This document shows positions 8,002 to 33,835 of a stretch of DNA of 64,000 bases, one piece after another; position 1 is the first letter of the stretch; the number at the start of each line of letters is the position of its first letter. The DNA is from Sulfurimonas gotlandica GD1 (GTDB lineage: Bacteria > Campylobacterota > Campylobacteria > Campylobacterales > Sulfurimonadaceae): contig NZ_AFRZ01000001.1 in assembly GCF_000242915.1 (NCBI RefSeq), positions 248,001-312,000 of the forward strand. Reading direction: 5' to 3'. A program made the position numbers and the translations under genes. The notes under the pieces are model-generated. The model had not been told where the DNA came from and made no database searches. It saw only the letters and a program-made list of their open reading frames with translations.

Positions 8002-9058
8002 AGTAGTGTAAATAACTCTGCGTATATCTTCTGGATATTTAAAATACACAGAAAGGTTCTCCCATTTATTACGCCATGATTTAATAACTATAGGATATTT
8101 AGAGCCCCATTTTTCTTCAAGTCTATCTAATTCAACTTCAGCAGCTCCTTTAAAGATAGCCCGATAAACAAGTTTGAGATCCTTCATAAACTCTTTTTGA
8201 TTTTTAGAAGCGACATATCGTATGGAATTTCTGATTTAATGTACAATGCATAGTTGAACTTCTGTTTTTGGAAAAATAGCTTTAATAGCTTCAGGAAAGC
8301 CTTTTAAACCATCAACTGATGCTATGAGTATATCTTGTATTCCTCGATTATTTAAGTCTGTTAAAACTTGTAACCAAAAGTTAGCACCTTCATTTTCAGA
8401 TAGGTATAACCCCAGTATCTCTTTTTTACCACTTAGTCCTACCCAGAGTATGGTATATACTGCTTTAGAGATATACTTCCCACTCTCTTTAATTTTATAG
8501 TGGATGGCATCAAGCCACACAAATGGATATATACTTTCAAGTGGACGTTGTTACCACTCTATAATTTTATACCCTCAAGGGGCACCTCGTCTGTTATAGA
8601 GCTGATTGTCGCTTTAGAAAACTCTACACCGTACATTTCATCAATATGTTCAGATATTTGACTATAGCTATTGCCTAAAGCATATAATGATAATATCTTC
8701 TGCTCTAATTGTTCTGATATATGAGTCTGATGTTTTTTTACTATCTCAGGTTCAAATGAACTATTCCTATCACGTGGTACATCTAAATCAAATGTACCGA
8801 CACTACTTTTCATAGTCTTTGAAGATTTACCGTTTTTACGATTATTAATCTCTGTAGATAAATGAGATTCAATTTCAGCTTCGAGAACTGCTTCAGTAAG
8901 TTGTTTAATCAGTGGAGCAAGCACTCCATCTTTGCCATCAATTCTGGCACCTTTTTTTATGAGTTAAAGTGCCTCGTCCATATTGAACTGTTGTTTCATA
9001 AGTCATTCCTTTAGAATTTAATATTCTATCGGTCTGACACAAAGTTTTGAACACTTCC
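8002..9058 (-). mobile_element. IS256-family insertion sequence remnant
   Basis: On the minus strand the frame from 8999 encodes an IS256-type transposase: MKQQFNMDEAL, IDGKDGVLAPLIKQLTEA, LDVPRDRNSSFEPEIVKK, then WLDAIHYK (first catalytic Asp) and SVDGLKGFPEAI (second). It is dead. There is an in-frame TAA after DEAL, a frameshift near 8565, a TAA in EW*QRPLES, another TAA in LCIVH*IRNS, and the protein is cut after RRVIYTT at 8002, losing the catalytic Glu and the right end. The left terminal repeat is probably GGTCTGACACAAAGTTTTGA and following bases, 9031-9058. The element lies in the 3' part of a serine recombinase gene. Two of the stops fall where the family usually has Gln (CAA to TAA). 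Confidence 0.85.
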
Positions 9059-13510: not shown

Positions 13511-13565
13511 TTATATGTGTATGAACTAATGTTATTTCAGTAAAACTACTACAACAGAAACGAAC

Positions 13566-13594
13566 TTGACTATTTCGCCAATTATTAATATTAT
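13566..13594 (+). promoter_or_regulatory. Internal promoter before the conserved gene pair (A)
   Basis: TTGACT at 13566-13571 and TATTAT at 13589-13594 are separated by exactly 17 bases. The corresponding place in locus B has TTGACT and TAACAT, also 17 bases apart, and the surrounding bases (CTATTTC, CAATTATT, CAGAAA) are conserved between the loci. That conservation outside coding sequence supports a real promoter driving the membrane/cytosolic pair independently of the XRE-controlled cargo. Confidence 0.65.
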
Positions 13595-13631
13595 ATAAGC
13601 AGAAACAGAGCTTGAAGATAAAGGAATTAAG

Positions 13632-13820
13632 TTGGTGAAATTTATGTACATAATACTTTCTCTATCGATGGGCTTATTTGTAAATGAACTTGTAAATTGT
13701 ATGATTGAAGAGTGTAACGCTTTTTATTTTGGTCTTTCAATCATTATGCTTCTTGGTGCTATGCTTGCTGTAGGCAAAGCAGAGTATGAAAAAAAGCTAT
13801 TAAATAATCAGGGCTCTTGA
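13632..13820 (+). CDS. Small membrane protein paired with 13828 (locus A)
   Basis: The 62-residue product MVKFMYIILSLSMGLFVNEL has two hydrophobic segments (about 5-20 and 32-47) separated by the Cys-containing loop NCMIEECNAFYF, and a charged tail KAEYEKKLLNNQGS. It is a clear paralog of the protein encoded at 27800-27988, sharing the loop NC-x-I-xx-CNAFY and the tail. The start is TTG (or GTG three bases on), after AAGGAA. It overlaps nothing but is followed seven bases later by its partner gene, as in locus B. Function unknown. Confidence 0.65.
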   Translation: MVKFMYIILSLSMGLFVNELVNCMIEECNAFYFGLSIIMLLGAMLAVGKAEYEKKLLNNQGS

Positions 13821-13827
13821 TACAAAA

Positions 13828-14262
13828 ATGACAAATCTCATATACTATAATAAAGAAACCGGTAGCTATATACAGTTTGAAATAGAAGGAGAGCATACTT
13901 ATAGTTTTTTTGATAATGAGACAGATATCAAAGATGCTGCAAATAACTTTGTAGAGTATGCAATGTCTAAAATACTGCAATTTGGAGCCACTATTGAGTT
14001 TCCAATAAAGTTACTTCAAGAGTTAGAAGATGAGCAGGAAATAGATCTGTTCTTGCTGGCTCCTTTTAATGAAAAAATCAAAGATGCTTTAATCTCTTGT
14101 ATTTTTGCAATAATCCCAGAAAACAATATCAAGAACTACTTCGATATAAAAACTAACTCACATTACATTTCTGAAGCAGTAGGTGCTGAGTCAATAATTA
14201 TATGCCAAGAGTTATATGACGGAAAATACTATGCAACTGATGTTGTGAATGGCGGCGCTTAA
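13828..14262 (+). CDS. Cytosolic protein of locus A, 144 aa
   Basis: MTNLIYYNKETGSYIQFEIE begins a 144-residue soluble protein without signal or membrane segment. It is about 75% identical by eye over 140 residues to the protein at 27295-27792, including LELEDEQ-like and DLFLLAPFNEK blocks, so purifying selection is acting. No known domain is recognised. The strongly conserved acidic segment FFDNETDIKDAANNF could be a binding surface. The gene always follows the small membrane protein gene in both loci, which suggests the two products work together. The C-terminal tails diverge. Confidence 0.7.
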   Translation: MTNLIYYNKETGSYIQFEIEGEHTYSFFDNETDIKDAANNFVEYAMSKILQFGATIEFPIKLLQELEDEQEIDLFLLAPFNEKIKDALISCIFAIIPENNIKNYFDIKTNSHYISEAVGAESIIICQELYDGKYYATDVVNGGA

Positions 14263-14628: not shown

Positions 14629-17600
14629 ATGAATATAGAACCTCTTTATATAGATATTGAAGCTACATATAGTGGGGATATTCAAGAACTTGGACTGATA
14701 TATAAAGAAGAGGAATTAAAAACTACTTCCATTAAAGAAGCATATGAATATATACAAGATGCTTCTACTAACTACATTGTAGGGCATAATATAATTGCCT
14801 TTGATAAAAAAATTCTAGAGACTAGCTCTATAAACAGTTTGCTTCATGGAAAAGTATTTATTGACACTCTGCCTATATCGATGTTATTATTTAACGAAAA
14901 AACGTTTCATAATCTTCCAAAAAATTATAAAAATGAAGATAATTTTTTAAATGATCCAGTCAAAGATGCGAAACTTTCAAAAGAGCTACTTGTTAAGTCT
15001 ATAAATAAGTTTAGAATACTACCGACATTACAAAGAAATATTTTATTTACTCTATTAAAAAATGAAGAATTATTTGAAGGTTTCTTTGAGCTAATAGAAA
15101 AGGAAAATATTTTTGAAGAACTTAGTGAACCAATACTAAAGGGTTCTATTCTAAATATTTTCAAAACTATAGTTAAGAATCAGGAAGTACTGCAAGAAGC
15201 TTTAGAGCTAAAAAGAATTGAACTCGCATATATACTTGCCATACGTATGCCTGAACTTGAAGTAAATGCGCAACCACCCAAGGTATTATATGATTATCCA
15301 GACATTACATCACTGCAGGAAAGAATGTGCTTTGATTATGACAATTCTGTTGATGAACTAAGTAGTACTGCTGAAGAAATTTTTGGCTTTGGTACGTTTA
15401 GAGACTTTCCTCGCCAAAATGCTACTCTTGAAACTGGGAATATGATATCTCAAAAAGAAATAGTTCAAGCTGGTTTAAAAAATGAGTCATTTCTTGCGAT
15501 TTTGCCAACAGGAGGAGGTAAAACTTTCACTTTTTGGCTTCCTTCTTTAATAAAAGCCAAATCATTAAAGACTCTTACTGTTATAGTCTCTCCGCTCCAG
15601 GCACTAATAAAAGATCATATGGAAAGTTTTCATGAATCAGTAGCTAATTATAAAGCTGTTGCCCTGAGTGGGTATTTATCTCCAACAGAACGTTCAGATG
15701 CAATGGATAAGGTAATTAATGGTGATGCAGATATTCTTTATCTAGCTCCAGAGAGTCTTAGGTCTAACTCAGTATTTAATTTGCTGAAAAACCGTGTTAT
15801 TGAACGATTTGTTATTGATGAGGCCCATTGTCTTTCGACTTGGGGAAATGATTTTAGACATGATTATTTTTACATAGGTACTTTTATAAAAGATTTACTA
15901 AAAGAAAAGCCTTTTCAAGAGCATATACCAATATCTTGCTTCACTGCAACTGCTAAGCCACAAGTTATAGAAGATATAACTGAATATATAGAATCCTCTC
16001 TAAATGTTCAAATGAGTCGTTATATAGCAATACCTGAACGAAAGAATCTAGACTATGAAGGATATGAGTTAGAAGATGATAAAGCTAAGTATACAAGCCT
16101 ATTAGAGTTTATTAATAAAAATGAAGGCTCTACCCTAATTTATATTCCATCTTCTACTAAAAAATGTGATGATGTAGCTGAACAATTATCTATTGATACA
16201 GGTAAGAATGTTAAATCATTTCACTCTAAATTAGAAACCGATATAAAAATGCAAATTTTGAAAGATTATATTGATGACACAATAGATATAGTTGTTGCAA
16301 CAACTGCATTTGGTATGGGAGTTGATAAACCAAATATTAAAAATGTAATTCACTATGAGATATCAGAATCACTAGAAAATTATTCTCAAGAAGCAGGTAG
16401 AGGGGCTAGAGATCAAAAGCTTAGAGCAACGTGCCCATTATTATTTTCTCAAAGTGATTTAGATAAACACTTTACGACACTTACTCGTTCAAAAATCAAT
16501 GCTGATGAAATAAATTCAATATTTAAAGTGCTTAAAAGTGATAAACGTAATCCGGTAGCCCTAACAACAAGAGAGATTGCTGCTAAAGCAGGATGGGATA
16601 CAGAAGACAATTCTAATGATTATGATATGAAGGTTAAGACAGCTCTTTTGGAGTTAGAAAGAGAAGATTACCTAGAAAGATCTAGGAATAAAGTACAATT
16701 TTATGCTGACGCTATAGCACTTGACTCTCTTGCTATATTACAAGAGGCATATAATACTAAAGAGTATAGTAAAGATTCAAAAGACAGGTTGTCCCGTATA
16801 CTTCAGACACTGCTAGGAAGGGGAAAGCCAGAAGCAGTTCAATTAGATGAGATGACTGAACTACTTGGCTATTCTCATGCAGAAGTCACTCAATCAGTTT
16901 TAGAGCTTAAAGAGATGAAGATCATTTCTGATGCAAAAGACTTGAGTCTTAAAATCAGTAAAGATAATAGAGATACATATACAGTTTATCAGCAAGTTGA
17001 AAATATATTATATGAATATTTAGTTCGTGATAATAACCATACAATTAGAATGAGTGAGCTGAATCAATTGTTGTTAGATAATGAAACATTAAATATTAAA
17101 AATGAAAATATGGCTCCAATTATAAAGGTACTACTTAAGAGTTGGATAGGAAATAGACATCAATTTAAATTTAATAGGATAGATAGGCAAAAAGATCTTT
17201 GGTACTTTGAATTCATTGATACAAAAAAAGTGAAAGAAATTATTGGATACAAGCATTATATAACCTCAAAAATTATGAAATTTTTGACAAAAAATATTAC
17301 TGACAAGAAATCATCTTCTAAAGAGTCGGTTGAGTTTTCAATGTTAGAACTTCAAGAAGAGTTAAAGATTGAAAATCTAAAAATAATAGATAAAGCGCTA
17401 CTTCACTTACATGAATTAAAAGTTATTGAGCTTGGAAATGGTCGTTTTATATACTATGCACCAATGAATATTCAAAAGCTTGATAGAATGCTAACACCTA
17501 ATAAAAAATACACTAAACAAGAGTATAAAACTAGGCTAGAGCCATATTATCAGAGGAAAATGGAATCTATCCATATAGTTGGAGAGTACTCTACAAGACT

Positions 17601-19419
17601 GATAAAAGACTCTAAAAATGCACAAATATTCATGAAAAATTATTTCACCCTTTCACGTAAAGAGTTTCTAAAAAAATATGGTGAGTTAGAAGAAAAATTC
17701 AAACGTCCAATGACAGAGTATCGTTACAATAAAATTTTTAATGAATTATCTGATGAACAGAAAAAAGTTATTGACGACAATGAGTCTCAAGGAATGATGA
17801 TTTTAGCTGGACCGGGTAGTGGAAAAACAAAAGTTTTAGTACATAAAATAGCATCTCTAATTTTACAAGAGAATATAAAAGCTGATCAATTTTTGATGTT
17901 GACTTACTCACGCACTGCAATGTTAGAGTTTAAATCTCGTTTATTTGAGTTGATTGGTCAGTTGGCATATGATATAGATATTTTTACTTTTCATGGTTTT
18001 TCTCTTCAACTTGTAGGAAGAGAAGTAAGTAGTGATGACGATCTACTGAAAAATGTCGTAGCTCTTGCTGCAAAGCAAATAAATGATGGGAAAATAGAAG
18101 TACCTTTTAAAACAGTCCTTGTTTTAGATGAGTATCAAGATATAAATGCTGATGGTTTTGAGTTAATAAAGGCATTATCAACGGCACATGAAAACAAAAA
18201 AAGACTTATTGCTGTTGGGGATGATGATCAGTGTATCTTATCTAATGTGAATGGTGCAGATATAAAGTATATTAAGCTATTTGAAGACGAGTTTGGAATT
18301 AATGATGAAGATATTAAATCATATGCTCAGTACGAGCTTTTAACTAACTTTAGAAGTCTACAAAGCATTGTAGAATATTCTAATAACTTTATTAATAATA
18401 TCAATATGAGATATAAAAAACATCCCCTTTTAGCTAATTCAAAACATCAAGGTGAAGTTGTAATACTCAATTGTAATTCACAGTATTTACAACAACCAGC
18501 CATTGAACAAGTTAAAGATTATATTGAAAAAGACAAGAGTTTAGCTGTATTAGCCTTCAGTAATAACGAAGTCGCTGACATATACTCATTATTACATGAA
18601 GAAGGTATTCCTGTAAGCTATTTGCTAAATAATGATGGGTTTAAGCTAAGTAATTTAGTAGAAATCAGATATGTTGATCAACTTTTAAAAGATAAAGAAT
18701 TGAATGAAAATCTTCTATGGGAAGTCTATGAAGAATCTAAAAAACGATATACTGGATCTAAAAATTTATTGATACTGTATGGAGTTATAAAGGGTTTTAT
18801 AGATGATCATGAGCTTTATACGCCTTCTTTATGGAGTATATATTTAGATGAAATATCTTCTGAGCAGCTAGTTAATACTTTTAATAAAGTTTTAGTCTCT
18901 ACAATACATAAATCAAAAGGTAAAGAGTTTGATACAGTTGTCTTAATGGCTCATAAGGCTACCTTAGATGATGAATTCATTAGATTGTTTTATGTTGGGA
19001 TGACTCGTGCGAAAAAGAAGTTGATAATTGTTACTGACAATAGTGTATTTAGTAAGTATGCTACAGAATCAGTGGAAAATAAACATAACACCAATGTTTA
19101 TATTGAACCAAAGAGAAAAACACTTGTTATGGACTTAGAACATTTATATCTTAGTTTTAGAGTTAGCAAAAAGATTGATCTTATAGCCGGCAGTCAAGTG
19201 TTTGTAAAAGAACTTACCAAGGATCAACGATATTATTTAGTTCAAAATGATATATTAATTGCACAGTTTTCAAAAAAAATGCAAAGCGAAATAGAAAAGT
19301 ATGAAAGACAAGGATATAAAGTATTGAATATTAATATTGAAAATGTCGTTGAATGGTTTGATAAACAATCAAATATTAATAGGCAGTTGCCATTATGTAA
19401 ATTAGTAATGGAAAAGTAA
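14629..19419 (+). CDS. Exonuclease-RecQ-UvrD fusion helicase, 1596 aa
   Basis: Three enzyme units are fused. Residues 1-130 look like a DEDD exonuclease: YIDIEATYSGD (Exo I), VGHNIIAFDKK (Exo II), DPVKDAKLSKELL (Exo III). Residues 270-720 are a RecQ-type helicase with Walker A LPTGGGKT (Lys298), DEAHC (397-401), TATA and QEAGRGARD. Residues 1040-1510 are a UvrD/Rep superfamily-1 helicase with AGPGSGKT (Lys1066), LDEYQDI (Asp1167), GDDDQCI, NFRS, STIHKSKGKEFD and VGMTRAKKK. All motifs are intact. Such a protein could resect and unwind DNA in both polarities. It is the first gene of a tight operon with a methyltransferase (four bases on) and an HNH nuclease, an arrangement suggesting DNA defence or repair. 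That role is inferred. Confidence 0.85.
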   Translation: MNIEPLYIDIEATYSGDIQELGLIYKEEELKTTSIKEAYEYIQDASTNYIVGHNIIAFDKKILETSSINSLLHGKVFIDTLPISMLLFNEKTFHNLPKNYKNEDNFLNDPVKDAKLSKELLVKSINKFRILPTLQRNILFTLLKNEELFEGFFELIEKENIFEELSEPILKGSILNIFKTIVKNQEVLQEALELKRIELAYILAIRMPELEVNAQPPKVLYDYPDITSLQERMCFDYDNSVDELSSTAEEIFGFGTFRDFPRQNATLETGNMISQKEIVQAGLKNESFLAILPTGGGKTFTFWLPSLIKAKSLKTLTVIVSPLQALIKDHMESFHESVANYKAVALSGYLSPTERSDAMDKVINGDADILYLAPESLRSNSVFNLLKNRVIERFVIDEAHCLSTWGNDFRHDYFYIGTFIKDLLKEKPFQEHIPISCFTATAKPQVIEDITEYIESSLNVQMSRYIAIPERKNLDYEGYELEDDKAKYTSLLEFINKNEGSTLIYIPSSTKKCDDVAEQLSIDTGKNVKSFHSKLETDIKMQILKDYIDDTIDIVVATTAFGMGVDKPNIKNVIHYEISESLENYSQEAGRGARDQKLRATCPLLFSQSDLDKHFTTLTRSKINADEINSIFKVLKSDKRNPVALTTREIAAKAGWDTEDNSNDYDMKVKTALLELEREDYLERSRNKVQFYADAIALDSLAILQEAYNTKEYSKDSKDRLSRILQTLLGRGKPEAVQLDEMTELLGYSHAEVTQSVLELKEMKIISDAKDLSLKISKDNRDTYTVYQQVENILYEYLVRDNNHTIRMSELNQLLLDNETLNIKNENMAPIIKVLLKSWIGNRHQFKFNRIDRQKDLWYFEFIDTKKVKEIIGYKHYITSKIMKFLTKNITDKKSSSKESVEFSMLELQEELKIENLKIIDKALLHLHELKVIELGNGRFIYYAPMNIQKLDRMLTPNKKYTKQEYKTRLEPYYQRKMESIHIVGEYSTRLIKDSKNAQIFMKNYFTLSRKEFLKKYGELEEKFKRPMTEYRYNKIFNELSDEQKKVIDDNESQGMMILAGPGSGKTKVLVHKIASLILQENIKADQFLMLTYSRTAMLEFKSRLFELIGQLAYDIDIFTFHGFSLQLVGREVSSDDDLLKNVVALAAKQINDGKIEVPFKTVLVLDEYQDINADGFELIKALSTAHENKKRLIAVGDDDQCILSNVNGADIKYIKLFEDEFGINDEDIKSYAQYELLTNFRSLQSIVEYSNNFINNINMRYKKHPLLANSKHQGEVVILNCNSQYLQQPAIEQVKDYIEKDKSLAVLAFSNNEVADIYSLLHEEGIPVSYLLNNDGFKLSNLVEIRYVDQLLKDKELNENLLWEVYEESKKRYTGSKNLLILYGVIKGFIDDHELYTPSLWSIYLDEISSEQLVNTFNKVLVSTIHKSKGKEFDTVVLMAHKATLDDEFIRLFYVGMTRAKKKLIIVTDNSVFSKYATESVENKHNTNVYIEPKRKTLVMDLEHLYLSFRVSKKIDLIAGSQVFVKELTKDQRYYLVQNDILIAQFSKKMQSEIEKYERQGYKVLNINIENVVEWFDKQSNINRQLPLCKLVMEK

Positions 19420-19423
19420 TTAT

Positions 19424-20017
19424 ATGAAAACAACAGAGTTTTATAACACTAAATCAACAGAGCTAATAGATAGATACGATAAAGCTGATATGTCACTACT
19501 ACATAATTTATTTATAAAATATATACCATTGAATAGTAGTGTTATTGATATTGGATTTGGATCAGGCCGTGACTTACAATTCCTATATGATAATGGATAT
19601 GATGTGTGGGGCATAGATCCATCTAGTGAATTTATCAAGAATGCCAAAAATAGGTTTAGTGATAAAAAAGACCATTTTTTTAAAACATCTGTGCCGTTTC
19701 AAAAAGAACTATTAGAGCTAAATGAAAAGTTTGAAGCAGTTATTTCTATAGCTGTTTGGATGCATTTTAAGCAGAGTAAATATGAAGAAGTAGTAGCAAA
19801 TATAGTGCAATTAACAAAGCCAGACTCTAGTATAATAATTAGTTATTCAGATGGAAAAAGGCTGAATGATGAACGTTACTTTGAAGATGTCAATTTAGTT
19901 TATTTAATAGAACTTTTCAACTCTAGAGGTTTCACATTAGTCGAAACTATTAAACATGAAGATAGTTTAAATCGTAAAAATATATCTTGGAAAACGGTGA
20001 TTTTTAAAAATGATTGA
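19424..20017 (+). CDS. Class I SAM-dependent methyltransferase
   Basis: The 197-residue protein has the SAM-binding motif I VIDIGFGSGRDLQFL (about 40-55), the acidic end of strand 2 in VWGIDPSSEF, and a motif IV-like AVWMHF. It belongs to the small Methyltransf_11/12-like group; there is no target recognition domain and no NPPF/DPPY catalytic motif, so it is not a standard DNA adenine methylase. The substrate cannot be told. It starts four bases after the helicase fusion and overlaps the HNH gene by eight bases, so the three products are almost certainly co-translated. Confidence 0.75.
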   Translation: MKTTEFYNTKSTELIDRYDKADMSLLHNLFIKYIPLNSSVIDIGFGSGRDLQFLYDNGYDVWGIDPSSEFIKNAKNRFSDKKDHFFKTSVPFQKELLELNEKFEAVISIAVWMHFKQSKYEEVVANIVQLTKPDSSIIISYSDGKRLNDERYFEDVNLVYLIELFNSRGFTLVETIKHEDSLNRKNISWKTVIFKND

Positions 20018-21137
20018 TGTCGAAGCTCTAAAACAAATAAGTTACATTATAGAAAATGATTCTACCTCAAGTACATACAAATATGTTTTACTTAAAAGTG
20101 TTATTAACGCGTCTCAAAAGTATGAGCATTTAATAGAAGTAAAAGATAATAGAGCCAGTATACCTATAGGACTAATTGTAGAGCAATGGATTTTAGATTA
20201 TATGCCATTTGTATTTAAAAATATTTCTCAACAAAACAGTGGTACAGTATTAGATAAGCCAATAATTGCTAATTACAACAAAATATTTTATTTATTAAAT
20301 CTTGATAGATATGTTGAATGGGAATATGCATATATGCAGTTTATAAAGTCATATAAGAGTTCAAACTTATCATTAGAGTTATCAAATGAATTTTTTAAGC
20401 TTGCAAGGAAAATGGCAAAAAAAATCGTCAGTATGCCGATGCGATATATTGGTAGGTCAGAGTATGAGTTTTTTACTCCAGATAAAGAAAGCTTTGCTGA
20501 TATAAAACTTGAAAATGGGATGATGTATGATTCTAGTTTTCTTGTAAGAGAATTTGGCTCCTTCTCCATCTCAGAACAACACTATAATATCTTCCGTTAT
20601 TTAGGTCAAACCTTATATGGTACTTCGACTATATTGTCAAAATGGAAACAGAAAACTTTAGCGCTGAACGTTGATCAATCATATGCAAAAGACATGATAG
20701 ACAAACTTTCTAGTGATACATTAGAAGTTAGGAATACATCAGCAATTAGAAATATATTAAATGAAGAGAACGAATGTGTTTGGTCTGGTAAAGAGCTGAG
20801 TGGAACGAACTATGATGTTGATCATGTATTGCCTTTTTCTGTATGGTTTAATAATGATTTGTGGAACATGCTACCTACTGATCGTGATTTAAACCAGAGA
20901 AGGAAAAAGAATAAGATTCCATCTCCTACATTAATTGAAAATAGGTCTGATGTTATTAAGCGATACTGGCATGATTATTTTAAAGAATTCCCACTATTAT
21001 TTAAGTCTCAAGTAGAAGTTTCTTTGACAGGAACTAACGTTAGAATAGATGAATTCATGGATGTAGCACTAGACTCATTATGTAGAAAAAGCCATTATCT
21101 AATTAATGATAGAGGGCATACACCTTTTTACGCTTGA
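20010..21137 (+). CDS. HNH endonuclease-domain protein
   Basis: The 375-residue protein has an HNH nuclease core in its C-terminal half: CVWSGKEL, then YDVDHVLPFSVWFNNDLWNM (DVDH at 269-272), then NQRRKKNKIPSPTL. The catalytic His, the following Asn and the last Asn are in place. The N-terminal 240 residues are mostly helical without a known domain and may recognise the target or a partner. The gene overlaps the methyltransferase by eight bases. With the helicase fusion this makes a nuclease-helicase-methyltransferase set. There is no phage-style cos or terminase context. Confidence 0.75.
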   Translation: MIDVEALKQISYIIENDSTSSTYKYVLLKSVINASQKYEHLIEVKDNRASIPIGLIVEQWILDYMPFVFKNISQQNSGTVLDKPIIANYNKIFYLLNLDRYVEWEYAYMQFIKSYKSSNLSLELSNEFFKLARKMAKKIVSMPMRYIGRSEYEFFTPDKESFADIKLENGMMYDSSFLVREFGSFSISEQHYNIFRYLGQTLYGTSTILSKWKQKTLALNVDQSYAKDMIDKLSSDTLEVRNTSAIRNILNEENECVWSGKELSGTNYDVDHVLPFSVWFNNDLWNMLPTDRDLNQRRKKNKIPSPTLIENRSDVIKRYWHDYFKEFPLLFKSQVEVSLTGTNVRIDEFMDVALDSLCRKSHYLINDRGHTPFYA

Positions 21138-22220: not shown

Positions 22221-23336
22221 TTATAAAAGTTGTTTTTTAACTGCATCTAAAAGTAATTGCTCTTCATTGGTTATAACATCATCAGCGGATATAATTTTTT
22301 CTATTATTTTAACTACATCTTCAATCTGATTTTTAGAAAGTAGTCCTTGTAACTCATTCAGTAAAACATCAAAATCTTCTTCTTTATTAATTTGCTTAAA
22401 TAAGTTTTGAACATCTTCATCATCAAGAAGATACTCATTTTTTATAAAGTTAACGAGGATGTCTAATTCTGCATTACTTACTTCACCATCAATGGAGACT
22501 GCATGATATAGCAACGTGATAACTGATACAATCATATTCTCATCAAGCTCTTCACCTCTAGTAAGTGATTTTAGTTGATTTAATAGACTGCTCTTAACTT
22601 TTGTTTTTTGTTTACTTTTTAGATTTTGCTTGATTGTTAATTTTGATATCTTTTCTTCAATATTTGTCAAATCTTTATTTTCAAATTTTTCACCTAACTT
22701 ATTAAAATACTTCATAGCTAAGTCTAAAAATTTATCTATATTGCCATTATCCCAAGCAGTTAATTGATTAAATGTCTGCACAAAACTTTTCCCATCCTCT
22801 TTTCCAAAAGCTTCAATTGCTATTGCCTCTATTTCAGTGTCTTCATACATCATATTTGATAATTTCATTGATACTAATACAATGAATGCAGTAAGAGCCG
22901 ATTTAATTAGCACTATTAATGATCCAAACATTACACCACCTATTATTGTAGCTGGTCCAGCAAAAGCTCCTATGGCAAATAACATTGTAATTAAAGATAT
23001 ATCCCATACCATAAGTCCTAGGAGTGTGGAAAGCGAAACTATAATTCCTGTGAATAATAATTTTGTCTTAGTATCAGTACTTTTAGAATTTAAAGCCGCG
23101 AAAATGAATTTAATGAAATTTGGTCCTATATAAACTGTTTTTTTAACTATATCTCCCGGTATACTCCTAATATACTTGATAAGTTCTTTATAGTTATTAC
23201 CTTCTCTTTCCATACTTTTTACACCTGCTACTGCAACACTTTCAGCTACTACCGCTGATTTGTCAGCTATGGTGGTAGCTTCTTTTATTTCTTTATACAT
23301 TTTTTTCCTTGAATCAGTATTTGTGACATAGTGCAT
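22221..23336 (-). CDS. Membrane protein with C-terminal TerB-like domain
   Basis: The 371-residue protein has a cytosolic helical N-terminus, three hydrophobic segments between about residues 85 and 165 (LLFTGIIVSLSTLLGLMVW, ITMLFAIGAFAGPATIIGG, IVLIKSALTAFIVLVSM), and a helical C-terminal domain. The last part matches TerB: LYHAVSIDGEVSNAELDIL, with the acidic DGE pattern, repeated weakly as ISADDVITNEEQLLL. TerB domains bind metal and occur in tellurite-resistance and phage-conflict systems. It diverges from another TerB-like gene (23624) across an intergenic region that carries the same repeat as its own 3' end. Joint function is inferred. Confidence 0.65.
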   Translation of the reverse strand: MHYVTNTDSRKKMYKEIKEATTIADKSAVVAESVAVAGVKSMEREGNNYKELIKYIRSIPGDIVKKTVYIGPNFIKFIFAALNSKSTDTKTKLLFTGIIVSLSTLLGLMVWDISLITMLFAIGAFAGPATIIGGVMFGSLIVLIKSALTAFIVLVSMKLSNMMYEDTEIEAIAIEAFGKEDGKSFVQTFNQLTAWDNGNIDKFLDLAMKYFNKLGEKFENKDLTNIEEKISKLTIKQNLKSKQKTKVKSSLLNQLKSLTRGEELDENMIVSVITLLYHAVSIDGEVSNAELDILVNFIKNEYLLDDEDVQNLFKQINKEEDFDVLLNELQGLLSKNQIEDVVKIIEKIISADDVITNEEQLLLDAVKKQLL

Positions 23337-23403
23337 TAATTATAACAAAGAAAAGTATTAATTAATTTTAAAGTAGTTTAAATTATAAATAAAGAGGGGG
23401 TGT

Positions 23404-23569
23404 TGTGATAAATCTGCAACCAAGTAATAAAAAAGTCTGTATAAGACACGAAGCGAGTCGCACATACTTCCATCAATTCCTAGAAACATCGTCAGGCAAT
23501 TAGTTTGTGGGGAATGGCTCGCCGGTTATGGGAACCGGCGAGAGGAATATTTTATTTTAAAATATTCCT
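23404..23569. repeat. Repeat R2 cluster between divergent TerB genes
   Basis: This intergenic block contains GATAAATCTGCAACCAA (related to GACAAATCTGCGACCAA near 26019), then TTGTGGGGAATGGCTCGCC (a second copy of R1), the palindrome TCGCCGGTT, ATGGG, AACCGGCGA (23519-23541), and a further perfect 12-bp hairpin starting AGGAATATTTTA (23543-23569). It must also hold the promoters of both divergent genes. The repeats are G/C islands in AT-rich DNA. Confidence 0.6.
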
Positions 23570-23623
23570 TATAGTTATTTAATAGTACAATAGTTTAATG
23601 AAATTTATTTTAAGGGCAATAAT

Positions 23624-24325
23624 ATGGGGTTTGGTAAGATTTTAGGTTTAGCAGCTTTGGGTGTAGGTGCTGTAGCAGCCGCACCATTTACAGGTGGTGG
23701 TTCGTTGTTCGGAGCAGCTACTTTAGGTGCCTCTTTAGCAGGAGCTGGAGCTATTGCAACTGGCGCAGGTGTAGCTGGTGCTGCTGCAGGAGCTGCTTGG
23801 TCAAGAAAAGATGATGAGAATGAGCAAAAAAAAGATGAGGAAATTTCTAGTTTAAATAAAAAAGCAGAAAAATTTCAACAAGCATTTGAAGATGCCGTCA
23901 ATGAATTTAAAGGAGATAAAGAATATTTCAATTACATTATTGCTTGTAGTGCAGTAGGCATTGCTGCTGCAAATTCAGATGGTGAAATAGTAAAAGAAGA
24001 AATAGATGAAATTAATGAGTTTGTTGGTGGGATCTCAAATGCAAATTATCCTAAGCATGTAGTAGAAGCTATTGCTAAACTAATAGATAATCCTCCTACT
24101 TTGAATGAAGCTATCAGTTATATGAAACATGTTCAGAAGTCTAATCATGAAAGTATTAGAGATTTAATAGAACTAGTTATAGAAGCTGATGGTAAAGTTC
24201 TTGAAGAAGAAAAAGCTTTCTTAGAAGCCTTTAACTATGCTATGAAAATGGTTAAATATACTGCTGAAAGAGAAGATAATGATAATAAATTTGTAAATGA
24301 AATTAAAGAGCGACTTTCAGCCTAA
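23624..24325 (+). CDS. Gly/Ala-rich membrane protein with TerB-like domain
   Basis: The first 60 residues are an Ala/Gly-rich hydrophobic stretch (GLAALGVGAVAAAPFTGGGS, then GASLAGAGAIATGAGVAG) of the glycine-zipper kind that can form a hairpin in membranes. A charged linker (RKDDENEQKKDEE) leads to a helical domain of about 130 residues with IAAANSDGEIVKEEIDEI (Asp119-Gly-Glu) and a second LVIEADGKVLEEEKAFLEAF, the two-repeat pattern of TerB. It starts 54 bases beyond the R2 hairpin and is followed after 26 bases by the HNH-motif gene. Colocalisation with the opposite TerB gene suggests one system. Confidence 0.65.
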   Translation: MGFGKILGLAALGVGAVAAAPFTGGGSLFGAATLGASLAGAGAIATGAGVAGAAAGAAWSRKDDENEQKKDEEISSLNKKAEKFQQAFEDAVNEFKGDKEYFNYIIACSAVGIAAANSDGEIVKEEIDEINEFVGGISNANYPKHVVEAIAKLIDNPPTLNEAISYMKHVQKSNHESIRDLIELVIEADGKVLEEEKAFLEAFNYAMKMVKYTAEREDNDNKFVNEIKERLSA

Positions 24326-24351
24326 AATTTATTTAATAAAAGGAATTTGTT

Positions 24352-25995
24352 TTGAGTAGAGTTGATAGATTTAAAAAAAGAAAGAAAATTAGTGAGAGTA
24401 CTGCTGTATATATGAGTTCAGATAAAAAATTAGTAGAAGAGTTTTTAAATTCTGATATTAACGAAAAAAAAATGAAACAAATTTATAAGGAATCTAATGA
24501 ACACTATGATTTTAAATATGATTTCAATGTTTCACAAGATGAAGCAAAAGACTTTTTAATTAAATTTAAAAAGGACTTTAATGATGAGAGGTTTAATCAG
24601 CTTATAAATGATTGTAAAAAGGAAGTTATAAATTCTATTGTAACACCATTTGGACTTGGTAAGGTAGTGGCCGCATATGATAAAGCTGGAGGCAATGTTA
24701 ATACAATCCATAATGCTCGCAACAAAGATTTTGTAGATTCTGATGGTACAGAATATAAGAATGGTCTATATGCAACAGATGAAGCAAAAGAAAATTATGA
24801 TAGTAGAGGAGATTACAACAGTGATGAATATCATAAAGATAAAAGATTTATAGACATAAATAGAAAGCATTCTGCATCTAAAAAAGATGGAACAGCAACT
24901 GACTATATGACTGGGGAAAAAATCAAACAAAATGATAGCCATGATTTAGACCATGTAGTTTCAGGAAAAGAGATCCATGATGATGCTGGAAGAGTTTTAG
25001 CTGGTATGGATGGGGCAGAATTAGCTAATACGGACATGAATTTAAAGCCTACAGACAGTAGTATAAATAGGTCAAAAAAAGCTGATTCTATGGAAGACTT
25101 TTTAAGTAGAAAAAATGAAAATATTAAAAAGATAAAAGAGTTAAAATCAAAAGATAATTTATCTGAAAAAGAACAAAAAGAATTAACAAAACTTGAAAAG
25201 CTTAAAAAGGTTGATGATAAAAAAGCTATTGAAGCAGATAAGAAAGCAAGAGAAGAGCAAGATAGTAAAATAAATAAAGAATATTATACAAGCGGAAAAT
25301 TTGCTAAAGATACTGCAATAGCAAGTGGAAAAGAAGGTGCTAAAATGGGTATACAACAAGCTTTAGGACTTGTTATTACTGAGTTCTTCACTGCTGTATT
25401 TGATGAAATTTTAGATATATACAAAAATGGCTTTACTTATGGCTTTGACGATGATAGATTTTTTATAGTATTAAAAGATAGATTAAAAAAGATAGCAAGC
25501 AGAGTAACAAGTAAGTGGAAAGATGTTGCTATTGCTTTTAAAGATGGTTTCATCTCTGGATTTATATCAAATTTAGTAACTACTGTTATTAATATGTTTG
25601 TAACAACTGGAAAAAGAGTTGTTAGAATTATAAGGGAAGGACTTTTTTCATTATTTAGAGCTGTTAAGTTACTTACATTTCCACCAGAAGATATGAGTTA
25701 TGAAGATTCAATGCATGAGGCTAAAAAACTAATTGCTAGTGGATTAATTGTTAGTCTAGGAGTAATAGCAGAAGAGTACATTGACAAACTTATTAGAGGT
25801 ACTGCAATACTAGAACCTTTTGCCGATGAACTAACTGCTGTATTTGTTGGTGCTATTACTGGTTTATCAATTACTATGGTTGTTTATTATATTGATAAGA
25901 AGAAAAATGATAAAGAAATGGTTGATTCTTTAATGAGTGATACAAATCAAAAATTTGATAATTTAGATGTATTATTAAATAGATTAAGATATTAG
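24352..25995 (+). CDS. HNH-motif protein with membrane C-terminus, 547 aa
   Basis: The start is TTG with AAGGAA seven bases upstream. Residues 150-245 resemble an HNH-type nuclease: YMTGEKIKQNDSHDLDHVVS (HDLDH at 197-201), then ELANTDMNLKPTDSSINRSK, giving the His and Asn pattern. A charged coiled-coil follows (about 245-305). The C-terminal 240 residues contain amphipathic and hydrophobic helices (IQQALGLVITEFFTAVF, KDGFISGFISNLVTTVI, LIASGLIVSLGVIAEEY, FVGAITGLSITMVVYYI) that look membrane-associated. I know no named family. A nuclease or toxin held at the membrane and linked to TerB partners is an inference. It ends in a repeat region (25996-26075). Confidence 0.6.
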   Translation: MSRVDRFKKRKKISESTAVYMSSDKKLVEEFLNSDINEKKMKQIYKESNEHYDFKYDFNVSQDEAKDFLIKFKKDFNDERFNQLINDCKKEVINSIVTPFGLGKVVAAYDKAGGNVNTIHNARNKDFVDSDGTEYKNGLYATDEAKENYDSRGDYNSDEYHKDKRFIDINRKHSASKKDGTATDYMTGEKIKQNDSHDLDHVVSGKEIHDDAGRVLAGMDGAELANTDMNLKPTDSSINRSKKADSMEDFLSRKNENIKKIKELKSKDNLSEKEQKELTKLEKLKKVDDKKAIEADKKAREEQDSKINKEYYTSGKFAKDTAIASGKEGAKMGIQQALGLVITEFFTAVFDEILDIYKNGFTYGFDDDRFFIVLKDRLKKIASRVTSKWKDVAIAFKDGFISGFISNLVTTVINMFVTTGKRVVRIIREGLFSLFRAVKLLTFPPEDMSYEDSMHEAKKLIASGLIVSLGVIAEEYIDKLIRGTAILEPFADELTAVFVGAITGLSITMVVYYIDKKKNDKEMVDSLMSDTNQKFDNLDVLLNRLRY

Positions 25996-27294: not shown

Positions 27295-27792
27295 TTAAAT
27301 AGTTATAAATTTAGTCTCTAATTCAATAAACGAAATGTTACTCGCAGAGTACTTTCCATCATTTAGTTCTCTGCAAATTATTATAGAATCTTTGCCTATT
27401 GCCTCGGAAATGTAACGTGTATTAGTTTTTATATCAAAGTAGTTTCTGATATCATTTTCTGGGATTATTGCAAAGATGCAAGATGCTAAAGTCTCTTTAG
27501 ATTTCTCATTAAATGGAGCTAGTAAAAAAAGATCTATCTCTTGTTCATCTTCAAGCTCTTTAAGTAGTTTTATCGGAAACTCAACATCAGCTCCAAACTG
27601 AAGTATCTTAGACATAACATAATCAACAAACTTATTTGCAGCGTCTTTGATATCAGCTTCATTGTCGAAAAAACTATAACTATGCTTGCCCTCTATTTCA
27701 AACTGTACATAGGTACCAGTCTCTTTATTATAGTATATGAGGTTTGTCATTTGTATCTGAAGATCTGTCGTTTGTACATTAATAATTGTCAT
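27295..27792 (-). CDS. Cytosolic protein of locus B, paralog of 13828
   Basis: The product shares its core with the locus A protein at 13828: MTNLIYYNKETGTYVQFEIE, SKILQFGADVEFPIKLL, DLFLLAPFNEK and CIFAIIPEND are nearly identical. The frame starts at 27792, adding 14 residues (MTIINVQTTDLQIQ) before the shared MTNLIYY at 27750. The extra bases contain three near-copies of CAAATGACA, which suggests a local duplication, so the true start is uncertain. The C-terminus diverges (SFIELETKFITI). No known domain. The gene follows its membrane partner by seven bases, as in locus A. Confidence 0.7.
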   Translation of the reverse strand: MTIINVQTTDLQIQMTNLIYYNKETGTYVQFEIEGKHSYSFFDNEADIKDAANKFVDYVMSKILQFGADVEFPIKLLKELEDEQEIDLFLLAPFNEKSKETLASCIFAIIPENDIRNYFDIKTNTRYISEAIGKDSIIICRELNDGKYSASNISFIELETKFITI

Positions 27793-27799
27793 TTGAATC

Positions 27800-27988
27800 T
27801 TACGATTCTTGTTTATTTAATAGCTTTTCTTCACGCTCAGCTTTGCCTGTAGCAAGTAAAGCACCAATTAACAGAGTAATTGAAAGAACCATATAAAAAG
27901 CATTACAATTACCAATCACACAATTGACAACTTCACTTACAAATAGGCCCGTAGATATGAAGAGTAATGCGTACATAAATTTCACCAA
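27800..27988 (-). CDS. Small membrane protein of locus B, paralog of 13632
   Basis: The 62-residue protein MVKFMYALLFISTGLFVSEV aligns without gaps to the locus A protein: two membrane segments, a loop with two Cys (NCVIGNCNAFYM), and the tail KAEREEKLLNKQES. The start is TTG or GTG after AAAAGGAATTAA, the same arrangement as at 13632. Conservation of loop cysteines suggests a disulphide or metal site facing the periplasm. Confidence 0.65.
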   Translation of the reverse strand: MVKFMYALLFISTGLFVSEVVNCVIGNCNAFYMVLSITLLIGALLATGKAEREEKLLNKQES

Positions 27989-28025
27989 ATTAATTCCTTT
28001 TTCTTCCAGTTGTATTTCTGTTTAG

Positions 28026-28054
28026 ATGTTATGAATAATTAGTGAAATAGTCAA
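28026..28054 (-). promoter_or_regulatory. Internal promoter before the conserved gene pair (B)
   Basis: On the minus strand TTGACT (28054-28049) and TAACAT (28031-28026) are 17 bases apart, matching the promoter at 13566-13594 of locus A in sequence and spacing. Confidence 0.6.
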
Positions 28055-28061
28055 GTAAATT

Positions 28062-30031: not shown

Positions 30032-30316
30032 ATGGCAAGAGTAGTTTATAGTGAAGAGTTCAGAATAGAAGCGGTGAAACAAGTTACAAAAAATGGTTAT
30101 AGCATAACTGATACAGCAGATAGACTGGGAGTTCATCCTGACTCACTGAGAAACTGGATAAAAAGATTAGAATCTCCTCAAGCAATACAAAAACATAAAA
30201 TATTAGATGAATCTCAGGTTGAGATAAAGAAACTCCAAAAAGAGCTCAAAAGAGTTACAGAAGAGAGGGACATACTAAAAAAGGCCGCGGTGTACTTTGC
30301 AAGCCACACAAACTAA
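30032..30316 (+). CDS. IS3-family transposase OrfA
   Basis: The 94-residue protein is a helix-turn-helix DNA-binding subunit (YSEEFRIEAVKQVTKNGYSI, then ADRLGVHPDSLRNWIKRLE) followed by a leucine-zipper-like helix (IKKLQKELKRVTEERDILKK). The slippery heptamer A AAA AAG at 30277-30283 lets ribosomes slip by -1 into the orfB frame, as is usual in this family. It is intact. Confidence 0.9.
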   Translation: MARVVYSEEFRIEAVKQVTKNGYSITDTADRLGVHPDSLRNWIKRLESPQAIQKHKILDESQVEIKKLQKELKRVTEERDILKKAAVYFASHTN

Positions 30317-31190
30317 AATATGCTTTTATAAAAGTATATAGTGAAGTTTATGCGGTTCATAGACTTTGCAAAGTTATGCAAGTACACCGTAGCGGATATT
30401 ATCAGTGGCTAAATCAGCCTATCTCAGATAGAGAACTTGAAAATAAAGAATTGTTAATACAGATTAAAGATGCATTCAAAGCATCAAATAGTGTTTATGG
30501 TCACAGGAATATTCATAAAGACCTTAAAGAGTTAGGTATTCATGTAAATAAAAAGCGAGTAGCTAGACTCATGAGTGAAGCTAAACTCTATGGTGTAGGC
30601 ACTTATAAACGCAAGCCATATAGCAAACCTGGTCCAGCTCATAAAGCTTACCCTAACTCTATCTCCACCAGTGTTTTATATCAGCTAAGCCTAATGACAC
30701 ATGGGTAAGTGATATTACATACATCAGAACAAAAGAAGGATGGATGTTTTTAGCTACTGTGATAGATTTATATAGTAGAAAGATTATAGGCTGGGCAACA
30801 GGTCATCGTCAAACCACACCATTAATAATAAAGGCTCTTAAAATGGCAATTACTCGACTTGGTAAGTCAGATAAAGTGATTCTTCACTCAGATCAAGGAA
30901 GTCAATATAGCTCTTATGATTATAAAAAAGTTGCTAAAGAGCATAATATTACTCTTAGTATGAGTCGAAGAGGTAATTGTTATGATAATGCTGTTGCAGA
31001 GAGCTTCTTCAAAACGCTTAAAAAAGAGCTTGTCAGAAAACAGATATTTATAACTAGAGAAATCGCAGCATCAAAAATATTTGAATATATAGAAATGTTC
31101 TACAACTCAAAAAGAAGACATAGTTATTTAGATTATATTTCACCAAATGAATTTGAAAAAAGGTATAATTTAGAGTCTTTAAAAAAGTAG
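30284..31190 (+). pseudogene. IS3-family transposase OrfB, frameshifted
   Basis: The orfB frame (-1 to orfA) reads through GVLCKPHKLKYAFIKVYSEV and the ATG at 30376 (MQVHRSGYYQWL) to about 30655, where a one-base deletion near CCTAACTCTATC puts it out of frame. The rest, from TWVSDITYIRTKEGW, keeps all three catalytic residues: Asp in WVSDI, Asp in ILHSDQGSQY and Glu in AESFFKTLKKEL. It ends at 31190. Confidence 0.85.
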
Positions 31191-32375: not shown

Positions 32376-32600
32376 GTGCAAGTATATAAATCAACATCAT
32401 CACTATGTGAAATATATGAAGTTGGAAGAGACTTTTTTCAAAGAAGAATTCAAAGTGAAGAGTTCATTTTAAATGAGCATTATATAAAACAAGCAAACAC
32501 TATTAGATGGGATTTTGAAGCTATTGAAAAGTGGTGGAGAGGCTCAAGCTTATCATCAGATGAACTGAATGATATCTTTAATAAAATCCTACCAGATTGA
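32376..32600 (+). CDS. Excisionase-like small DNA-binding protein
   Basis: The 74-residue product (GTG start) has an AlpA/Xis-style pattern: LCEIYEVGRDFFQRRIQSEE, FILNEHYIKQANTIRWDFEA, IEKWWRGSSLS. Short winged-helix proteins with this layout next to an integrase act as recombination directionality factors. The end overlaps the longest possible integrase frame by a few bases. The call is by pattern and position. Confidence 0.55.
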   Translation: MQVYKSTSSLCEIYEVGRDFFQRRIQSEEFILNEHYIKQANTIRWDFEAIEKWWRGSSLSSDELNDIFNKILPD

Positions 32601-32659
32601 AATATTACCTAAAAGGATGTACCATATCAAAGTTATCTGCGGTTGCCAAAAGGAAAACT

Positions 32660-33742
32660 ATGGCAACTATACGTTCTAGAAATAGTGTCTTATATCTTGA
32701 TTATTATTATGAATCGAAAAGGATTCAAAGAAGTACTGGATTTAAAGATACTAAGGCAAATCGTAAGATGCTGGAAAAAGAAATAATTCCAGAACTTATG
32801 AAAAAAATATATCTTGGTGATTTGAAAAAACCTGATTCTAAAAAGTTTGCTCATTACCATAAGAAGTTTTTAAAACTTCACGAAAGCGATAAAAGCTTTC
32901 ACAACAGGATAGGTGTTTACAATAGAGTAAACGAGTTCTTTGGAAATATGTTTGTATCAGATATAAAGGTTCTCACTGTAAAAGAGTACCTCTCATCACT
33001 AAACCTTAGAAATAGTAGTAAAAAAGATTATCTTGGATGTGTTAGAGGTACTCTTGATATTGCACTTGACGATGAAGAGATAGATAGAAATGTAGCTTTT
33101 GGTATTAGGTTTAAAAGAGAAGCTAAAGCTCCTATACAACCTTTTTCTATTGATGAAGTCACATTAATGCTTGAAAAGTCAGAAGGTATGTTTAGAAACT
33201 ACATAGGTATATCATTAAATAGTGGTTTGAGAAGTGGTGAAGTATTAGGACTCATGCATAGTGATATCTTAGAAGATAGAATATGTGTAAGGCGTTCTGT
33301 ATCTCAAGGTCGTGTCACATCACCAAAGACACTTGGAAGTGTCAGAGATATTCCAATGCTTGAAGCTCTTAGACCATACCTAGAGAGCCAAAAGAAGTTA
33401 AGTGAATCACTTTACCTATTTGACTTTGATAAGACGTTTATAAAGGACGCTTCATTCTTTAAAAGAAGATGGCATCAACTAGTAAAAGATTGTAATATGG
33501 AGTATAGAAAACTTTATACGACAAGACATACTTTTATAACTGCGATGTTAAATAGTGGAAAGTTTAAAATAATGGAAATTGCAGCCATTGTCGGACACAC
33601 TTCACCAGAGATGATTGTTAAAAACTATGCAGGTTTTATAAAAGATAATCACTTGAAAATCGATACAAATGTAGAGCTCTTTAAAAATAGCTGTTGCAAT
33701 ACCGTGACAGTTAAAAAAATGAGTGATTTGAAAAACGCTTGA
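32660..33742 (+). CDS. Tyrosine-family integrase
   Basis: I start at the ATG at 32660 (MATIRSRNSVLYLDYYYESK), with AAGGA five bases upstream; a TTG at 32597 would add 21 residues without a site. The protein has an N-terminal arm-binding domain, a core-binding SAM-like domain, and the catalytic set: Arg191 in GLRSGEVLGL, Arg289 in YTTRHTFI, His313 in VGHTSPEMI and the nucleophile Tyr323 in KNYAGF. The His normally two or three before the second Arg is replaced (LYTTRHT). It ends 17 bases from the 3' end of the CAT tRNA, so it probably inserted the island there. Confidence 0.9.
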   Translation: MATIRSRNSVLYLDYYYESKRIQRSTGFKDTKANRKMLEKEIIPELMKKIYLGDLKKPDSKKFAHYHKKFLKLHESDKSFHNRIGVYNRVNEFFGNMFVSDIKVLTVKEYLSSLNLRNSSKKDYLGCVRGTLDIALDDEEIDRNVAFGIRFKREAKAPIQPFSIDEVTLMLEKSEGMFRNYIGISLNSGLRSGEVLGLMHSDILEDRICVRRSVSQGRVTSPKTLGSVRDIPMLEALRPYLESQKKLSESLYLFDFDKTFIKDASFFKRRWHQLVKDCNMEYRKLYTTRHTFITAMLNSGKFKIMEIAAIVGHTSPEMIVKNYAGFIKDNHLKIDTNVELFKNSCCNTVTVKKMSDLKNA

Positions 33743-33758
33743 AAGTTCGGTGTGTAAG

Positions 33759-33835
33759 TGGTGGGTCCTGCGTGATTCGAACACGCGACCACTCCGTTAT
33801 GAGCGGAGGGCTCTAACCAACTGAGCTAAAGACCC
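33759..33835 (-). tRNA. tRNA with anticodon CAT (Met or Ile2), att site
   Basis: A full cloverleaf is present: acceptor GGGTCTT with AGGACCC, D arm, anticodon arm CTCCG, CTCATAA, CGGAG, T arm with GTTCGAATC, and an encoded CCA (33759-33761). The anticodon CAT means elongator Met or Ile2 (lysidine-modified); I cannot decide between these. Its 3' end faces the integrase gene, so the tRNA 3' half is the likely attachment site of the island to its left. No second copy of the 3' end was seen in the window. Confidence 0.9.

Follow-up and report, generated by a model that had tools for sequence, protein, structure and literature searches.

A mobile exonuclease–RecQ–UvrD fusion linked to a methyltransferase and an HNH protein in Sulfurimonas gotlandica: a possible new helicase–nuclease type system

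What could be the purpose of a gene that joins an exonuclease, a RecQ-type helicase and a UvrD-type helicase in one chain and is followed at once by genes for a methyltransferase and an HNH protein? The question is raised by an operon in the complete 2.95-Mb genome of Sulfurimonas gotlandica GD1 (G000), which lies in the 64,000-nucleotide stretch analysed here (the window, G000:C1:248001-312000) and for which an earlier note had proposed a three-gene defence or DNA-processing system. Positions given without a contig or locus name are those of the window.

The operon and its three proteins

The operon occupies G000:C1:262629-269137 on the forward strand and comprises HEL (14629-19419, 1596 aa), a DEDD exonuclease–RecQ–UvrD fusion recognised by Pfam, NCBIfam, motif alignments and profiles, MT (19424-20017, 197 aa), a class I SAM methyltransferase that resembles TehB and Methyltransf_23-25 by Pfam and motifs, and HNH (20010-21137, 375 aa), which consists of a conserved N-terminal region and a Cas9-type HNH_4 domain. 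HEL and MT are separated by 4 bases and the reading frames of MT and HNH overlap by 8 bases; the coordinates and spacings of the earlier note were exact to the base. Since all three open reading frames far exceed the length expected by chance and HEL is conserved across genomes at 33-81%, the feature is real. Promoter and terminator scans scored no better than those of shuffled sequences.

The N-terminal domain of HEL (residues about 1-215, 14629-15273, forward strand) is predicted to be a DEDD 3'-5' exonuclease and has no convincing Pfam family. An AlphaFold2 model of residues 1-1036 has a pLDDT of 79, mostly 80-90 in the exonuclease part with a weak stretch at residues 94-105, and aligns from about residue 235 with RecQ, BLM and WRN structures (Z up to 33, about 28-33 for RecQ and BLM); as the structure searches are filled by the RecQ part, the identity of the exonuclease rests on its motifs and on a profile of the domain, which finds exonucleases of solved structure at low significance (E 0.0011 at best). 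Among 34 aligned homologues the motifs D9-x-E11, G52-H-N54...D59 and N108-x-P-x-x-D113 vary little or not at all, and they are also kept in alignments A2 and A7, and all four acidic residues of the DEDD set (D9, E11, D59 and D113) are conserved across the family. The third motif, however, carries Asn108 in nearly all homologues in place of the His or Tyr that defines DEDDh and DEDDy enzymes. The DEDD assignment of the earlier note is therefore retained for the acidic residues and the profile match, while the domain falls outside both classical subclasses.

The RecQ-type SF2 core (residues about 245-620, 15361-16488) and the UvrD/PcrA-type SF1 helicase (residues about 1036-1490, 17734-19098), both on the forward strand, are matched by Pfam as DEAD and Helicase_C (275-594) and as UvrD-helicase and UvrD_C (1040-1469), respectively, the former also by TIGR00614 and by RecQ and BLM structures and the latter by profile matches to PcrA, UvrD and GajB structures. 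The motifs PTGGGKT, DEAH and QEAGRGARD of the RecQ part and AGPGSGKT, DEYQD, GDDDQ and TRA of the UvrD part are conserved, and conservation across the aligned homologues supports the previous reading of intact motifs in all three enzymatic parts. HEL exceeds the cut-off of TIGR00614, the model for the RecQ family ATP-dependent DNA helicase (234.9 against 219.8 bits), and stays below that of TIGR01389, the housekeeping RecQ equivalog (248.6 against 640.2), where it covers profile positions 17-348 of 591. As the RecQ profile match ends near residue 620-626, no canonical RQC/HRDC part is recognised. Between exonuclease and RecQ core (residues about 230-245) many distant homologues carry a CxxxCxYC pattern (alignment A4) that the HEL of the window lacks.

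MT matches Methyltransf_23, 25, 12 and 11 of Pfam; where amino-methyltransferases have (D/N/S)PP(Y/F/W) in motif IV, the corresponding region of MT has the sequence AVISIAVWMHF and lacks this pattern. The HNH_4 core (residues 256-304, 20775-20921, forward strand) scores 33.4 bits in Pfam against a cut-off of 22, is also found by profile, and its catalytic residues D271, H272 and N295 are invariant within the HNH family, so that the identities first given to MT and HNH from reading the translations are confirmed. Among solved structures the HNH profile matches the HNH domains of Cas9 (HNH_4) best; unlike Cas9, the protein comes without RuvC or CRISPR parts and has an N-terminal conserved region of its own. 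An AlphaFold2 model of HNH alone, built without relatives, has a mean pLDDT of 32, too low for any use.

Island location and spread of HEL

The operon is carried by an island at a tRNA-Met gene (33759-33835). The gene is abutted by a tyrosine integrase with Phage_integrase and Arm-DNA-bind matches (32597-33742, forward strand), and a 54-bp attachment repeat at 33750-33803 (forward strand), which contains the 3' part of the tRNA, marks the right end; its left counterpart, also 54 bp and a 98% match, lies outside the window at G000:C1:197190-197243. The genome contains exactly two copies of a 24-base pattern from the 3' end of this tRNA, at 197199 and 281759 in the same direction, and the similarity to G350, the closest relative found, stops at 33750 beside the tRNA-Met, beyond which the DNA differs. 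Because the two repeats flank 262629-269137, HEL, MT and HNH lie within a repeat-bounded stretch of about 84.5 kb, which may be one element or several that accreted between the repeats. An island of about 33 kb confined to the window had been considered as well and was dropped, since the left repeat lies outside it. The stretch encodes the prokaryotic viperin pVip (G000:C1:200112-200957, L224:4613-5458; PADLOC E 1.6e-89), whose gene is situated left of the window.

A survey with the inter-helicase region as query found the HEL family in 32 of 399 Campylobacterales genomes, a patchy distribution. Since G000 has a RecQ-like gene (open frame of 604 aa) and a UvrD-type gene (open frame of 685 aa) besides, HEL is not a core housekeeping gene, an outcome that the earlier note had named as speaking against its proposal. 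The family occurs on plasmids of Campylobacterota, Bacteroidota, Cyanobacteriota, Pseudomonadota and Deinococcota, with full-length or nearly full-length relatives 26-48% identical to HEL in Aliarcobacter, Bacteroides, Phocaeicola, Nostoc, Scytonema, Rhizobium, Sulfitobacter, Thiothrix and others, and on the inspected plasmids it stands without MT or HNH beside it. A full-length HEL (>80% of length) was found in none of 50,697 phage records, and IMG/VR contigs hold about 14 HELs, some of them partial; some copies may therefore be carried by prophage-like elements and act on their behalf. The HEL tree, built from 43 proteins, contains two Campylobacterales clades and implies at least 14 host-family changes for 9 families, compared to 8 if each family grouped together, and broken or truncated copies are present in G361, G025, G041 and G031. 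Judged by this distribution and tree, HEL is an accessory gene that moves horizontally. In Nostoc sp. C052, HEL and an HNH-family gene are located on different plasmids (NZ_CP040273.1 and NZ_CP040279.1).

Such a distribution raises the question of whether HEL acts for the integrative element itself, in counter-defence, maintenance or transfer, for instance by loading at replication forks or by excluding rival elements, rather than in host immunity. Its locations on repeat-bounded islands and plasmids, the integrases that it adjoins in G361 and G118, and the copies in IMG/VR contigs are in line with this role. Against it, HEL also has chromosomal locations with a restriction system as neighbour (at L026 type I genes, at L003 a type IV enzyme) and is spread across more than one element class, and we consider a role confined to the element improbable.

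Partners of HEL, possibly exchangeable

Relatives of HNH are rarer than those of HEL: they were found in 5 of 397 genomes of the phylum (E<=1e-8), one of them as a partial match in a longer frame, and in 8 of 299 genomes of the order (E<=0.001), three of them as weak partial matches; neither IMG/VR nor the phage records contained any. MT and HNH are adjacent in the window and in G142, G069 and G048, and they are fused in one protein in a second copy in G000, in G031 and on plasmids of Roseomonas, Azospirillum, Sphingobium and Pseudoalteromonas, while HNH stands without MT beside it in G138, Hymenobacter, Tolypothrix and Deinococcus.

One explanation of this pairing is that MT and HNH form a two-gene modification/restriction-like unit in which MT would mark self DNA and HEL would complete degradation after cleavage by HNH. 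The overlapping reading frames in the window and the adjacency or fusion of both genes wherever both are found, with the exception of G009, agree with this explanation. However, MT belongs to the TehB/Methyltransf_23-25 group and lacks (D/N/S)PP(Y/F/W), the DNA-methyltransferase motif looked for as a mark of restriction-modification, which disfavours a classical restriction-modification reading, and on several plasmids as well as in G138 the HNH relative occurs without a neighbouring MT. A self-marking unit of this kind is accordingly judged quite unlikely.

HEL is joined with MT and HNH at four loci that involve both HEL clades. Besides the window these are the second locus in G000 (G000:C1:2050757-2057755, L026:7728-14755), where an MT–HNH fusion is followed 341 bases later by a full-length HEL 36-39% identical to that of the window, with type I restriction genes beyond; G009, where MT, two genes, HNH and HEL follow each other on one strand and HNH and HEL overlap by 4 bases; and G031, where an MT–HNH fusion faces a truncated HEL. 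All four belong to the genus of the window and are partly related by descent. The two genes between MT and HNH in G009 (L029:12831-14755) encode proteins of 409 and 232 aa with no Pfam match.

In order to avoid bias, the linkage was counted only at loci that came from HNH searches, which excludes G009, found via HEL. HEL is adjacent at 3 of 7 clear MT/HNH loci (the window, the second copy in G000 and G031, not G142, G138, G069 and G048), as against a chance adjacency of about 3 in 10,000 per locus, calculated for 34 HEL matches spread over about 399 genomes, each taken as about 2 Mb. Three of seven would arise by chance with a probability near 1e-9, and of about 1e-4 even if such genes were in 50-fold excess on islands. 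Shared descent within one genus lowers the number of independent linkage events to perhaps two or three; as both HEL clades are involved, the link still exceeds chance. Most HEL genes have no adjacent MT or HNH and most MT–HNH units have no HEL, so HEL cannot need MT–HNH. The three-gene system of the earlier note thus holds insofar as MT–HNH recurs with HEL in rearranged forms and homologues are not always isolated from MT and HNH, the other outcome that it had named as adverse; it does not hold as a fixed set, since elsewhere the parts are mostly apart and in the Sulfurimonas-like genomes where they recur together their order differs. This recurrence in differing gene orders suggests a modular, unnamed system that attacks or processes foreign DNA.

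MT–HNH is not the only partner of HEL. In G218, G297 and G399 (L064, L068 and L072) the first 4-11 bases of HEL are shared with a DUF2779 gene. The DNA of G218 and G297 is 85% identical from the start codon of DUF2779 to about 340 bases into HEL and about 66-70% identical thereafter, and their HEL proteins are 49% identical and belong to different parts of the tree, which indicates that DUF2779 and the exonuclease end of its HEL were transferred as one piece. The recombination breakpoint between L064 and L068 lies about 340 bases into HEL. DUF2779 has been placed among presumed 3'-5' exonucleases, and a DUF83 (PD-(D/E)XK-like) domain has been described in the DUF2779 family (PMC3985635). Other tight or near neighbours of HEL are a type IV-like restriction enzyme (L003), AbiEii (L083), an HD/dGTPase-like gene (L073) and type I restriction genes, the latter near HEL at L026 and also beside it on an Allochromatium plasmid. 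Matches to defence models are enriched near HEL: 107 PADLOC models were matched (E<=1e-20) among 126 HEL neighbours compared to 11 in a control set of 115 proteins, which were taken from the same genomes or from related ones, a contrast that must be taken as suggestive rather than exact and as a modest enrichment, since the models are redundant and the 107 correspond to far fewer proteins.

Comparison with described systems and possible function

The earlier statement that the operon matches no named system agrees with the scans of the operon and its neighbours, in which no PADLOC 2.0 system (PADLOC-DB of 2023) and no NCBIfam equivalog reached its cut-off. Partial resemblances exist. The UvrD part of HEL matches models and structures of GajB, the UvrD-like helicase of Gabija, but the scanned proteins of operon and neighbourhood contain only such GajB-like matches and no GajA (OLD-TOPRIM nuclease). 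Druantia, DISARM and Dpd likewise combine an SF2 helicase with a nuclease and a methyltransferase, yet HEL is of the RecQ family, not YprA, and although DpdF models match its RecQ part, it stays below the cut-off of the DpdF equivalog NF041063 (201 against 550 bits). Zorya II pairs the HNH nuclease ZorE with a separate ZorAB motor, akin to the HNH protein and proposed engine found here, whereas the PADLOC scan of the operon and scanned neighbours revealed no ZorA or ZorB genes for a proton-driven motor. The likeness to MADS is limited to a weak match of MT to mad2 (2.1e-12), as the scanned neighbours contain no further gene of the mad set. In RefSeq plasmid records the homologues of HEL bear the name 'RecQ family ATP-dependent DNA helicase' (TIGR00614). 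The literature searched on RecQ–UvrD fusions, on HNH with a methyltransferase and RecQ, and on DUF2779 with RecQ or another helicase, mostly papers outside subscription, contains no account of the system. A survey from 2014 reported the association of a 3'-5' exonuclease with RecQ helicases as cluster F.14; its text does not mention UvrD and gives no function for this cluster (PMC3985635).

The closest likeness in domain order is that to the Werner helicase (WRN), in which an N-terminal 3'-5' exonuclease is followed by a RecQ core. HEL differs in being bacterial, accessory and horizontally moved rather than housekeeping, in the additional UvrD-type SF1 helicase of the same chain and in the Asn of the third exonuclease motif. 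WRN combines an exonuclease with RecQ, and MrfAB an SF2 helicase with a 3'-5' exonuclease. In the main rival explanation HEL might be an element-borne helper in DNA repair or recombination, similar to WRN or MrfAB, that serves its plasmid or island, with MT–HNH as an independent neighbour. Such a role is suggested by the WRN-like domain pairing, by helicase and exonuclease domains that would suit repair or recombination equally well, by the position of HEL beside parA/parB on an Aliarcobacter plasmid and by the mostly solitary occurrence of both HEL and MT–HNH. It does not account easily for the linkage to MT–HNH in both HEL clades and in several gene orders, with spacings or overlaps of 4 and 8 bases, nor for the exchange of a different nuclease gene, DUF2779. 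We regard a repair helper as less likely than not.

As the best explanation, held tentatively and at slightly below an even chance, we propose that HEL is a helicase–exonuclease engine borne by mobile elements that works with exchangeable nuclease partners, here MT–HNH, in processing or destroying foreign DNA such as that of a phage or rival plasmid. The Cas9-type HNH protein would nick or break DNA, and HEL would load at the resulting end or gap, where its two motors, RecQ and UvrD, which each belong to a 3'-5' family, might unwind the duplex while the DEDD domain would digest the exposed 3' end. Elsewhere HEL could act without HNH, either together with a different nuclease or directly at free DNA ends. 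The most likely role of MT is to regulate the nuclease or to modify something other than a base (RNA, a nucleotide or a protein). That this activity would serve defence we infer from the genomic context of the operon.

With less assurance, the exonuclease–RecQ–UvrD protein may be seen as the common engine of an undescribed modular DNA-targeting family, whose partners (MT–HNH, DUF2779 and possibly others) would be swapped by recombination inside the engine gene; a new modular family behind a helicase–nuclease type system is possible. The searched libraries describe no system for a WRN-like exonuclease–RecQ protein fused to UvrD, despite its spread on mobile DNA of several phyla. Were HEL a defence engine with swappable nucleases, it would represent a new helicase type for prokaryotic immunity and would explain many genes annotated merely as 'RecQ family helicase', and its swappable partners would allow the nuclease that determines the target to be clearly identified by test.

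The surroundings of the operon show some further features. Two inverted copies about 80% identical (13564-14234 and 27344-28056) flank the HEL operon region on both sides and contain small genes at 13632-14262 and 27295-27988. Downstream of the operon, 22221-25995 encodes TerB-like proteins and a 547-aa protein matching the PADLOC candidate PDC-M40B (5e-74), and transposase-like fragments were recognised by reading translations at 8236-8924 (IS256-like) and 30032-31190 (IS3-like). The 84.5-kb stretch also encodes a protein of 1214 aa that matches DUF4062, NTPase and TPR models (L224:13548-17192) and whose N-terminus is, by eye, similar to that of a 1492-aa protein with WD40 repeats (L225:619-5097); both are possible STAND-type sensors.
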